DNA of 35,893 bases from the NCBI GenBank assembly GCA_036395115.1, contig DASWDU010000043.1, positions 1-35,893 of the forward strand, in the 5' to 3' direction. A program made the translations under genes and the position numbers. Every line of letters begins with the position of its first letter. Position 1 is the first letter of the stretch. Source of the DNA: Thermoplasmata archaeon (GTDB lineage Archaea; Thermoplasmatota; Thermoplasmata; RBG-16-68-12). The notes beneath the pieces were generated by a model, which did no database searches, was not told the origin of the DNA, and saw nothing but the letters and a program-made list of their open reading frames with translations. This document shows, piece by piece, positions 26,398-30,120 of the stretch.

Positions 26398-27894
26398 TCA
26401 CCCTTGCGACGCGCGTATGAGCAGCCTGAGATGTCGGCCGAGCCCGGCGTATACCTCGGGTTCAATTCGCTTGAGCGACACGAAGTACATGATCGTCCCG
26501 ACGAGCGTGGCGGAACCGAGAACCACCACATCCTGCCCGCCGATCGAGTAGATAATTGACTTGAATGCAAAGGCAAGCCCCCCGGCAATCCCGGCAGCGA
26601 CGACTGGGCCTCGTAGACGAACGGCCAATTCGCTAAACCGGAGCTGGAGAATCCGCGACGCCCAGAGGAGCGAGACTACCAGCGCAAATGGGACCGGGAT
26701 CGTCATTGCAAGGGCGGTGCCGGCGATTCCAAACAGGATTGTGAAAGGTGGAAGGAGGCCGAGAGACCCGACTAAGATCATTGCATTGAGCCGCGGAATC
26801 GCGCCGGGCCGACCCATCGATGCGAACAGAGGCGTCGTGAATTCAACGACAGCTTTAGAAAACCCGTAGAAAGAAAGGATGATCAGGGGGAGTATCGAGG
26901 GTCTCCATATCGGCCCGAGCAGGACAAGGACGATTTCCGGGGCCATGACCGCTAGACCGAAAGATACCGGTGCGACGGTCGCGATCGCGTACCCGACGCT
27001 TTCGAGATAGCCTCGTCTTACCCGCGGCAAGTCCTCCTGAATCTTCGAGAGGGTCGGGAACAAAGCGGTGGCAGCCGAACCAGATACCATTGAAGAAAAG
27101 AGGCAAATGCTGTATGCGACCGCATAATACCCCAGCGTGGCGGTCCCCAAGATAAGGCCGACGGTGAAATTGTCGACGTTGGTCATCAAGAAGACCAAGA
27201 CCGATGCTACGATGATGTGACGCGAGTATGCGAAAAGCGACTTCGCGACCGAACGGTCGAACCTGAATCGTGGGCGCCAGGGATACGCAACCGAGAGGCT
27301 CACCACCCAAACCATCTGCGACGCGATTAGGGCTACGATAAGAGACCAGAAGCCGAAACCTAGGATCGCGAGGCTGATCGCGACAACGGAGTTCGTGAAT
27401 TGGTTGAGTAGGTTGGGGACAATCAACCGTCGATACGCGAGCTTGACAGTGAGTCTCGTAGTCGGAATGAGACTCCAGGGGCCGATGAGATACACGATGG
27501 CGAGCGCTTGAGTGGCGCCCGCAATCACGGGGTTCCCAAAAATCGAGGACCATGGTATCGCAAGCCCGAGTGTGGCCACGAGCAATGCGATGGAAATGAT
27601 CGCCCGGAGCGACATCGCCACCTCGTACTCCTCATCCTTGGCAGAGTCCGCGCGCTCGATGAGGGCATAATCGAGGCCGAAGTTCCCGAGCGCGGACACG
27701 AACCCGATGAGGCCCGCTGCGAGAGCGAAGATGCCGAAATCCGCGGGAAACAGGACTCGAGCGAGGACGATTTTCGTCGCGACCGCGAAGCCTCTGCTCA
27801 CCCATTGCATGGCGATGAGGATTGCAACGTTTTGCGCCGTCCGTGTTCGAACGGAACGGCCGCTCCCTTCTTCCCCGAATCCCGAATCGGCCAT
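26398..27894 (-). CDS. Wzx-like oligosaccharide flippase (MOP superfamily)
   Basis: The 498-residue protein has 12-14 hydrophobic segments and the polysaccharide-exporter signature near its start: QNVAILIAMQWVSRGFAVAT, then VLARVLFPADFGIFALAAGL and LGNFGLDYALIERAD. Proteins of this type flip lipid-linked oligosaccharides across the membrane and fit downstream of the cytosolic glycosyltransferases encoded opposite. The ATG at 27894 is followed by 15 charged residues before the first helix. On the minus strand TCAATTGAAAC lies roughly 20 bases upstream and may be part of a weak promoter. The gene is separated from the archaeosortase gene by 45 bases on the same strand, so co-transcription from the archaeosortase promoter is also possible. 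Confidence 0.92.
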   Translation of the reverse strand: MADSGFGEEGSGRSVRTRTAQNVAILIAMQWVSRGFAVATKIVLARVLFPADFGIFALAAGLIGFVSALGNFGLDYALIERADSAKDEEYEVAMSLRAIISIALLVATLGLAIPWSSIFGNPVIAGATQALAIVYLIGPWSLIPTTRLTVKLAYRRLIVPNLLNQFTNSVVAISLAILGFGFWSLIVALIASQMVWVVSLSVAYPWRPRFRFDRSVAKSLFAYSRHIIVASVLVFLMTNVDNFTVGLILGTATLGYYAVAYSICLFSSMVSGSAATALFPTLSKIQEDLPRVRRGYLESVGYAIATVAPVSFGLAVMAPEIVLVLLGPIWRPSILPLIILSFYGFSKAVVEFTTPLFASMGRPGAIPRLNAMILVGSLGLLPPFTILFGIAGTALAMTIPVPFALVVSLLWASRILQLRFSELAVRLRGPVVAAGIAGGLAFAFKSIIYSIGGQDVVVLGSATLVGTIMYFVSLKRIEPEVYAGLGRHLRLLIRASQG

Positions 27895-27939: not shown

Positions 27940-29121
27940 CTAGCATCTGTTCGCGCCGGCTCTAAGGACGAGCCCACATCCGACGCAGTTCGAACCCGTC
28001 GGAGCGCACGCGATGTGGTAATACCGACCGCATGAACACCTTCTTCCCGGAATCGATAAGCTCATGCTTCTCTTGCACGTCCAGCAAAGAGTGCTGGGCG
28101 CAGAGCGTCCCACCTTGCGTGGATTCCCTTCGATTCCCGTTTGGGGTAGGAATCGAAAGAGAAGAGACCAGAAGAGGGCAATCCAAGCGAGAAAAATCAG
28201 CCATCCGGCGTATGAGTGGGCGATGAGCATGTGCTGCAGATCCGTCTCGCCAGTGTCCGTGTAGTAGCCGACCAGAATGATGACGACCATCCGCAGCACA
28301 TTCGCGATGTACGATGTGATTAGCCCCAGCCCCAGGAAGACCCAGAGTCGCTTGGACGGTTTCTCATACTCCGTCATGACGAAGGCTGCAAACGCCGACG
28401 CGAAAATTCCGAAGGAGTAGATGCCCGAACAAGCTGTCGTGATTACGATGGTAACTTCAGCGCCTACATGCAACGGCACGAACGTAAGTCCGGGAGCGGT
28501 TGCACCGCTGACGGGATGAACCGTATTGGATACCCCGATCATCGAAAGGACCCCGCTGGTTTCGGGTGCCAGGGCAACCCATGAGTACACGTCCACTGAG
28601 CGCTGGAAGTCCTGGTAGAACGCCCTGGATAATAGGAGTGGCGCAACGAGGATGAGATTCAATAGAACGAAGAATGCCAGTACAAAATCCCGCTCCCGTG
28701 CATACTTGTCGGGGACCAGAGGGTGGACAAGAAGAGTCGCACCGAGTAGGATTGCAATCGTGTCCTCCGTGAGGAGTTGCGGGTTCGCGGATAGAAACAC
28801 ATTGTACGCGATATCGGTGAGGACAATCGCGGCTCCGAGGGCCGGAAAAACAGAGACCCGCCGATTGTCGAGTCGAAATCGGGAAAGGATCTTGTCAAAA
28901 ATGTGATTCCGGCTGGGCTCCTTTTGGGTGGTCTGGGGCCATACTTGCCAGACGAAGATAGCACCCCCGAATGCGACAAGCGGAAGGGCCACCCATTCGA
29001 GGACAGAGCCTTTCGGGCGGTCGACGAGGAGCGCGACGCCTGCAAAAGTGGTAATAAGCGCCATGAGGACCATGGCTTTTCGTTGATTTGTCAGCGCCGC
29101 TGCAACCGATTTGAAAACCAT
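27940..29121 (-). CDS. Archaeosortase with C-terminal C4HC3 zinc-finger-like tail
   Basis: The 393-residue polytopic protein has the exosortase/archaeosortase catalytic signature: Cys231 in TTACSGIYSFGIFASAF, Arg277 in IANVLRMVVIILVGYY and His302 in AHSYAGWLIF. Archaeosortases cut C-terminal sorting signals of surface proteins and join the new end to a lipid. After the last helix the protein continues from about residue 340 with C-x2-C-x12-C-x-C-x4-H-x2-C-x6-C-x2-C (Cys346 to Cys382), a PHD/RING-like zinc ligand pattern not usual for the family. The ATG at 29121 lies about 34 bp from the centre of a TATA box. The open frame upstream to 30054 is a shadow of the PRPP synthetase gene. It lies at the right edge of the glycan island beside a flippase. 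No target protein with a recognisable sorting tail is seen in the window. Confidence 0.9.
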   Translation of the reverse strand: MVFKSVAAALTNQRKAMVLMALITTFAGVALLVDRPKGSVLEWVALPLVAFGGAIFVWQVWPQTTQKEPSRNHIFDKILSRFRLDNRRVSVFPALGAAIVLTDIAYNVFLSANPQLLTEDTIAILLGATLLVHPLVPDKYARERDFVLAFFVLLNLILVAPLLLSRAFYQDFQRSVDVYSWVALAPETSGVLSMIGVSNTVHPVSGATAPGLTFVPLHVGAEVTIVITTACSGIYSFGIFASAFAAFVMTEYEKPSKRLWVFLGLGLITSYIANVLRMVVIILVGYYTDTGETDLQHMLIAHSYAGWLIFLAWIALFWSLLFRFLPQTGIEGNPRKVGRSAPSTLCWTCKRSMSLSIPGRRCSCGRYYHIACAPTGSNCVGCGLVLRAGANRC

Positions 29122-29150
29122 GGCGCCCGTCGATTCCGACGAAGGTCGAG

Positions 29151-29160
29151 GATATAAGAA
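29151..29160 (-). promoter_or_regulatory. TATA box for the archaeosortase gene
   Basis: On the minus strand the sequence is TTCTTATATC, 30-39 bases upstream of the ATG at 29121, fitting a leaderless or very short leader transcript. It sits in the divergent intergenic region shared with the PRPP synthetase gene. Confidence 0.6.
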
Positions 29161-29200
29161 GCCTCGCGACTCGTTATCGAGAGCGCGAGAGGTAGGACGG

Positions 29201-29210
29201 TTCAAATAGC
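29201..29210 (+). promoter_or_regulatory. TATA box for the PRPP synthetase gene
   Basis: TTCAAATAGC is centred about 33 bp upstream of the ATG at 29239, giving a leader of only a few bases. It is nearly identical to the box before the SHOCT gene. Confidence 0.55.
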
Positions 29211-29238
29211 CTCGCCCGATACGACGCTCGGTCGGCCC

Positions 29239-30120
29239 ATGAAGGTCGTCGGCGGCTCCGCGTCGGTCCCCCTCGCCCGAGGCATCGCGCGCGAGCTCTC
29301 CGCCGAGTACGTCGACGTGGCCTTCGAGAGGCACCCGGGCGGCTTCCCCGACGGAGAGCGATACGTCCGCCTCCTCGGCCCCGTCGCGGGCGAACATGTC
29401 GTCCTCGTGCAGACGACTCACCCGGACCCGATGATCGTCGAGATCCTCCTCCTCGCGGACGCGATCCGCGACGCGGGCGCACATCGACTCACGGCCGTCG
29501 TCCCGTATTTCGGCTACGGCCGGCAGGACAAGCGGTTCCTTGACGGCGAGGCGATTTCGGCGAAGACGATCGCGAAGCACCTTGCGGTCGACTGCGACGA
29601 ACTCCTGACGATGGCGATCCCGGCCAACCCGCAGATCCTCCGGGCCTTCCCGCTCCCCACGCGCGAGGTGAGCGGCATGCCGGCGATTGGCCGCTACCTG
29701 AAGTCCGCGAAGGTCGACGTGCTCCTCGCGCCGGACGAGGGCGCGCTTCGGCTCGCGAAGGAGGCCTCGTCGATCGCGGGGGTCCCGTTCGACTTCCTCG
29801 TGAAGGAGCGCATCGACTCGTACACGGTCAAGATCGAGCCGAAAACCTTGGCCGTCCGGGGCAAGTCCGTGGCCATCGTCGACGACGTCATCTCGACGGG
29901 CGGAACGATTGCGATTGCCGCAAAGGAACTTCGCGGCCAAGGCGCCCGCCGGATTGTCGCCGCGTGCGTCCACGGCCTCTTCGTCGGACCTGCGGAGTCG
30001 AACCTGAAGGCGTGCGATGACGTGACCGCGACCGATACGGTCCAGTCCCGCCACACGAAGATCACTGTGGCGCCGGAGTTCGCCGCGGCGATCCGGGCCC
30101 TCGGGACGCCGTCCGGCTAG
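29239..30120 (+). CDS. prs: Ribose-phosphate pyrophosphokinase (PRPP synthetase)
   Basis: The 293-residue enzyme makes PRPP from ribose 5-phosphate and ATP for nucleotide, histidine and tryptophan synthesis. It has FPDGERYVRL, the ATP-binding YFGYGRQDKRF, and the PRPP-binding loop SVAIVDDVISTGGTIAIAAK. Length and sequence fit the shorter archaeal class. It is GC-rich, like the flanking chromosome and unlike the glycan island it borders, so it probably marks the ancestral right edge. It has its own promoter and converges with the GalU-like gene across about 50 bases. Confidence 0.96.
   Translation: MKVVGGSASVPLARGIARELSAEYVDVAFERHPGGFPDGERYVRLLGPVAGEHVVLVQTTHPDPMIVEILLLADAIRDAGAHRLTAVVPYFGYGRQDKRFLDGEAISAKTIAKHLAVDCDELLTMAIPANPQILRAFPLPTREVSGMPAIGRYLKSAKVDVLLAPDEGALRLAKEASSIAGVPFDFLVKERIDSYTVKIEPKTLAVRGKSVAIVDDVISTGGTIAIAAKELRGQGARRIVAACVHGLFVGPAESNLKACDDVTATDTVQSRHTKITVAPEFAAAIRALGTPSG

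Follow-up and report, generated by a model that had tools for sequence, protein, structure and literature searches.

An archaeosortase with a predicted cytosolic RING/PHD-like treble-clef tail in a Thermoplasmata archaeon, and its probable role in docking

The window, a stretch of 35,893 nucleotides from a Thermoplasmata archaeon, encodes an archaeosortase with a cysteine-rich tail behind its membrane core. This raises the question what such a tail does on a membrane enzyme. A preliminary description of the locus proposed either the recruitment of a cytosolic partner or the sensing of metal or redox state. Our preferred reading, held with moderate confidence, is a PEF-CTERM-type archaeosortase whose cytosolic tail, a two-zinc treble clef on a flexible linker, serves for docking. 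The features referred to below are the following.

26398..27894, minus strand: polysaccharide flippase (PF13440), 45 bp downstream of the archaeosortase gene on the same strand; context, outside the fusion
27940..29121, minus strand: archaeosortase gene (PF09721 and TIGR04178), 393 aa, stop codon at 27940-27942, residue 1 being the ATG at 29121
27970..28089, minus strand: RING/PHD-like binuclear treble-clef tail, residues 345-384, predicted from conservation, structure model and Foldseek
28090..28146, minus strand: linker, residues 326-344, variable in length and sequence, pLDDT below 50 at residues 329-342
28216..28218, minus strand: codon of catalytic His302
28291..28293, minus strand: codon of catalytic Arg277
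28429..28431, minus strand: codon of catalytic Cys231
29152..29158, minus strand: TATA-like CTTATAT, about 30 nt 5' of the archaeosortase ATG, recognised from sequence only
29239..30120, plus strand: ribose-phosphate pyrophosphokinase (prs, PF13793), divergent and upstream; context

Gene, reading frame and sortase core

The gene had been described as having an intact reading frame and promoter. The frame is indeed intact, being open on the minus strand over 393 amino acids. A promoter is plausible from the sequence, as CTTATAT precedes the ATG by about 30 nt. An alternative frame of 704 aa from an upstream GTG was rejected; it would overlap prs and is unconserved, and most orthologues begin near the ATG. 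In the intergenic region (29122-29238) a TATA-like box precedes both the archaeosortase gene and the divergent prs, in each case about 30 nt from the ATG; this points to transcripts with little or no leader.

The protein was assigned to the exosortase/archaeosortase family by Pfam (PF09721, 36.5 bits, cut-off 25.7) and NCBIfam (TIGR04178, 53.5 bits, cut-off 23). Cys231, Arg277 and His302, named before as catalytic residues, were found at these positions and are invariant in 28 homologues. The best NCBIfam match is archaeosortase C (TIGR03762, 63.8 bits), but with a score under the cut-off of 100 bits the protein is not filed as a member; it also differs by its additional, predicted cytosolic zinc tail. 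Among named genomes, one scan returned one close relative, the metagenome-derived Euryarchaeota archaeon EA_23 (90% identity), probably from soil.

Hydropathy and the AlphaFold2 model are both compatible with eight predicted membrane helices. Lysine and arginine are more frequent in loops 61-91, 136-145 and 252-257 than in the loops bearing Cys231 and His302. By prediction, the archaeosortase is a multi-pass membrane protein with its active site outside. From the positive-inside loops and the position of the tail behind the eighth helix, the tail is predicted to be cytosolic. A Foldseek search with the full-length model yielded no significant match for the membrane core.

The putative zinc-finger tail and its conservation

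The motif C-x2-C-x12-C-x-C-x4-H-x2-C-x6-C-x2-C, reported for the tail, is present exactly in the window protein, with the ligands C346, C349, C362, C364, H369, C372, C379 and C382. The last 53 residues hold eight cysteines and residues 1-340 only one, the catalytic one; thus the cluster is not due to chance. Residues 325-393 are strongly basic (10 K/R vs 1 D/E).

The full protein was modelled by AlphaFold2 with 28 homologues (mean pLDDT 79.9), which gave a good core, a disordered linker at 329-342 and a folded tail. Modelled alone with 36 relatives, the tail reached a pLDDT of 86. Hence the structure prediction that had been proposed as a check indicates a folded tail, not a disordered one. 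The suggested likeness to PHD or RING treble clefs was borne out by Foldseek, whose top matches in the PDB were PHD, RING, FYVE and LIM fingers. The best PHD fingers superposed at 0.8-1.4 A over about 31-34 residues, with weak E-values (0.08 at best), which is usual for a query of 49 residues. The sequence profile of the tail matched AMFR, other RING proteins and the PHD finger of NSD2. With eight ligands and the modelled treble-clef fold, the tail is by fold group predicted to be a binuclear treble-clef zinc finger.

A closer classification was attempted with known finger families. The window's own tail stays below all Pfam cut-offs. The tails of orthologues are RING-like by Pfam, and one of them passes the gathering score (PF13639, 28.7 vs 27.3 bits). 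In PHD fingers the loop before the last C-x2-C has 12 residues or more. The tail shows exactly the C4HC3 order of these fingers, with C-x-C/C-x2-C, x4-5 and H-x2-C, but only six residues precede its final C-x2-C, and PHD models score below cut-off. Eight ligands and the predicted treble-clef fold are shared with RING and PHD fingers (PF13639; PHD_NSD, PF22908), but C-x-C-x4-H-x2-C together with a last loop of six residues fits neither fully. Prokaryotic RING family 1 (PF14446) gave sub-threshold matches in several proteins carrying the same domain, e.g. 24.6 vs 29.1 bits in the peptidase L084 described below; no tested member reached the curated cut-off. Since its C-x-C-x4-H-x2-C is PHD-like and its last loop is shorter than in PHD fingers, we call the tail a RING/PHD-like binuclear treble clef, an unproven member of either family.

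The conservation of the tail was examined in genomes sampled by kinship at the levels of genus, family, order, class and phylum. The window's own genome (G000) has 2.4 Mb and is 98% complete. The window protein was matched, in whole or in part, in 38 of 61 genomes. A look for the tail in archaeosortase homologues had also been proposed, and the ligands proved conserved throughout the order: all orthologues with a complete C-terminus, about 90 to 36% identical (91 to 38% by BLAST), keep the eight positions. In the comparison with the nearest relative (91% identical), nine of the 40 tail codons differ synonymously and three change the amino acid; among 18 linker codons the numbers are three and five. 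Beyond the order, the domain was detected on archaeosortases of four further families of the class (f7, f17, f21 and f25). In one of these proteins (L020, family f7) the middle ligand pair is displaced by one.

Many of the more distant archaeosortases of the class are tail-less and stop shortly behind the final helix; in some a charged extension is present. In two archaeosortases of other classes in the phylum (L179 and L183), one or two zinc ribbons take the place of the tail. When the RING-like label was mapped on a tree of 42 archaeosortase cores, a minimum of two changes was required, compared with a mean of 13.6 for shuffled labels. The tail-bearing proteins form two blocks, one with the window's order and family f7, the other with families f17, f21 and f25. 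The two placements and the zinc ribbons elsewhere suggest that a cytosolic zinc module may have been gained repeatedly; for the RING-like label, one gain followed by losses is the alternative.

The module on other proteins, candidate substrates and gene neighbourhood

What the preliminary description could not see is that these archaea place the module of the tail on many proteins. Members were found with the tail profile in 22 of the 25 genomes tested, three of them, including the archaeosortase, in the window's genome. At the scale of the phylum, 38 of 147 genomes contain the module at an E-value of 1e-6 or better. One genome of the same phylum (G336) has 17 matches on contigs C136 and C95, some of them in tandem within one frame. 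The carriers are diverse and mostly act in membranes or transport: oligopeptide-ABC ATPases with the module at the C-terminus (L081, L082), DUF835 membrane proteins (L067, L070, L078, L085), a CarboxypepD_reg protein (L076), zinc-ribbon arrays (L071, L072) and proteins of about 1,500 aa (L066, L073). In L084 (genome G028), a peptidase of the clostripain family (C11) is followed by a membrane helix and, at the end, by the module. The ligand spacing is mostly identical between the archaeosortase tail and modules on unrelated proteins. Reuse on proteins as different as ABC ATPases, DUF835 proteins, a membrane peptidase and the proteins of about 1,500 aa would be expected if the module served for docking in general. 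Furthermore, the archaeosortase tail is predicted on the side of the membrane where ABC ATPases work.

For the substrates, the PEF-CTERM model (TIGR03024) gave sub-threshold matches in relatives. These lie at the genuine C-termini of large proteins, where PEF is followed by a hydrophobic stretch, a basic cluster and the stop. TIGR03024 alone was too weak for finding substrates in the window's genome, which was searched with a local profile built from these C-termini. A 1,140-aa open frame (G000:C16:18845) with the PEF-CTERM-like end NAPEFHEVALPAVATVVLVSILARRRRRGA was identified, and further such C-termini were found in the window's family. In two members of the order without archaeosortase (G026 and G030), the best profile matches had no recognisable PEF ending. 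The candidate signals resemble PEF-CTERM sorting by their PEF-hydrophobic-basic C-termini in the same genomes, but differ in scoring below the TIGR03024 cut-off. As judged from sequence, a putative cognate C-terminal sorting signal is present in the window's genome and its relatives. In the candidate substrate of the window's genome (L206, G000:C16:18700-22600), an internal membrane segment is preceded by CxxC pairs like those of zinc ribbons and by a stretch resembling a helix-hairpin; the N-terminal half of this protein is thus probably cytosolic.

The flippase adjoins the archaeosortase also in three relatives (L002, L003, L007), an arrangement kept mainly among close ones. The window further encodes glycosyltransferases, a UDP-sugar dehydrogenase and a nucleotidyl transferase. 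This neighbourhood fits the assembly of surface glycan and surface protein. prs is kept as a neighbour in most relatives with enough flanking sequence, an adjacency that may be functionally meaningless. No partner for the tail was named by the gene neighbourhood in the window and its relatives.

Function of the tail

According to the preferred reading, the archaeosortase core would process PEF-CTERM-like surface proteins, and the binuclear treble-clef domain would be held in the cytosol by a flexible linker that follows the final membrane helix. There the tail, probably with two bound zinc ions, may act as a protein-protein docking module for the outward-facing sortase. Conceivable cytosolic partners are enzymes that supply lipids or glycans, the Sec machinery or a scaffold. 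The tail itself would be non-catalytic and, in this lineage, not a ubiquitin ligase. Since tail-less archaeosortases are common in the class, the tail is dispensable for sortase chemistry.

We know of no zinc tail on archaeosortase A of Haloferax volcanii, a fellow archaeosortase that differs from the window protein in subfamily and signal. Its substrate cleavage is tied to lipid anchoring, and PssA and PssD, two lipid enzymes, are recruited to midcell along with ArtA in Haloferax (PMC7157517). This is a precedent for recruiting such an enzyme. In other prokaryotic systems, treble clefs (B-box, AN1, LIM) were reportedly linked to membrane peptidases by Burroughs and Aravind in 2011 and proposed as protein-interaction modules. 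Those systems share with the archaeosortase a cytosolic treble clef beside a membrane peptidase, but both the treble-clef families and the peptidases are others; to our knowledge, a sortase is not among them. The earlier remark that no described sortase with such a domain was known agrees with our search for sortase, exosortase and archaeosortase, which found none in a literature with few subscription journals. The fusion of a sortase with a zinc finger thus appears undescribed in what was searched.

Partner recruitment fits the evidence better than the sensing of metal or redox state, in which the cysteines would switch the sortase on or off. The clustering of seven cysteine ligands speaks for such a sensor; the eight positions, however, make up a full set of ligands for two structural zinc ions and are conserved even where the rest varies, and the same domain occurs on proteins without common regulation in sight, so that we regard it as very unlikely. 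Equally improbable is a tail that handles the substrate by keeping PEF-CTERM proteins at the sortase through their basic cytosolic end. Candidate substrates do have a terminal basic cluster, located on the tail's side of the membrane, but the C-terminal region of the window protein is itself strongly basic, and archaeosortases manage commonly without the tail. RING-like fingers often form dimers, and the tail could merely stabilise the protein or its assembly, for instance by self-association, with no separate partner. We consider this unlikely, as the long disordered linker and the reuse on unrelated proteins suit docking better.

A role as E3 ligase finger for a ubiquitin-like protein, marking the sortase or its neighbours, was considered because the tail profile matches RING E3 ligases such as AMFR. 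E2 (PF00179) was detected in 97 of 300 genomes of the class, among them some tail-bearing relatives (families f2, f3, f17 and f21). In two genomes of family f2 (G031 and G022; loci L116 and L117), E2 is flanked by a small ubiquitin-like protein and a JAB protease. In contrast, the window's genome, which is 98% complete, and the other sampled genomes of its family f1 yielded no E2. The tail is intact there and thus independent of E2, which makes a ubiquitin-ligase role unlikely in this lineage; moreover, the ligand spacing is PHD-like, not RING. This explanation therefore appears extremely improbable.

Docking being preferred, the wider occurrence of the module allows a more speculative proposal: the treble clef might be a tag by which the sortase, the clostripain-type peptidase, oligopeptide transporters and DUF835 proteins are assembled at a single hub in the cytosol, possibly the protein of about 1,500 aa ending in the module. 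Such a lineage-wide docking system is a tentative and rather doubtful idea. For the question how sortases of the outer face are coupled to cytosolic events in archaea, the conserved docking tail offers a handle; it could be used as bait for finding the partner. Furthermore, RING/PHD-type fingers would be general modules in archaea where no E2 was found, and such fingers bear on the origin of those in the eukaryotic ubiquitin system. The ubiquitin-like protein encoded at L117 gave a weak YukD match, and a JAB-like protein was detected in the window's genome with 26.7 bits.
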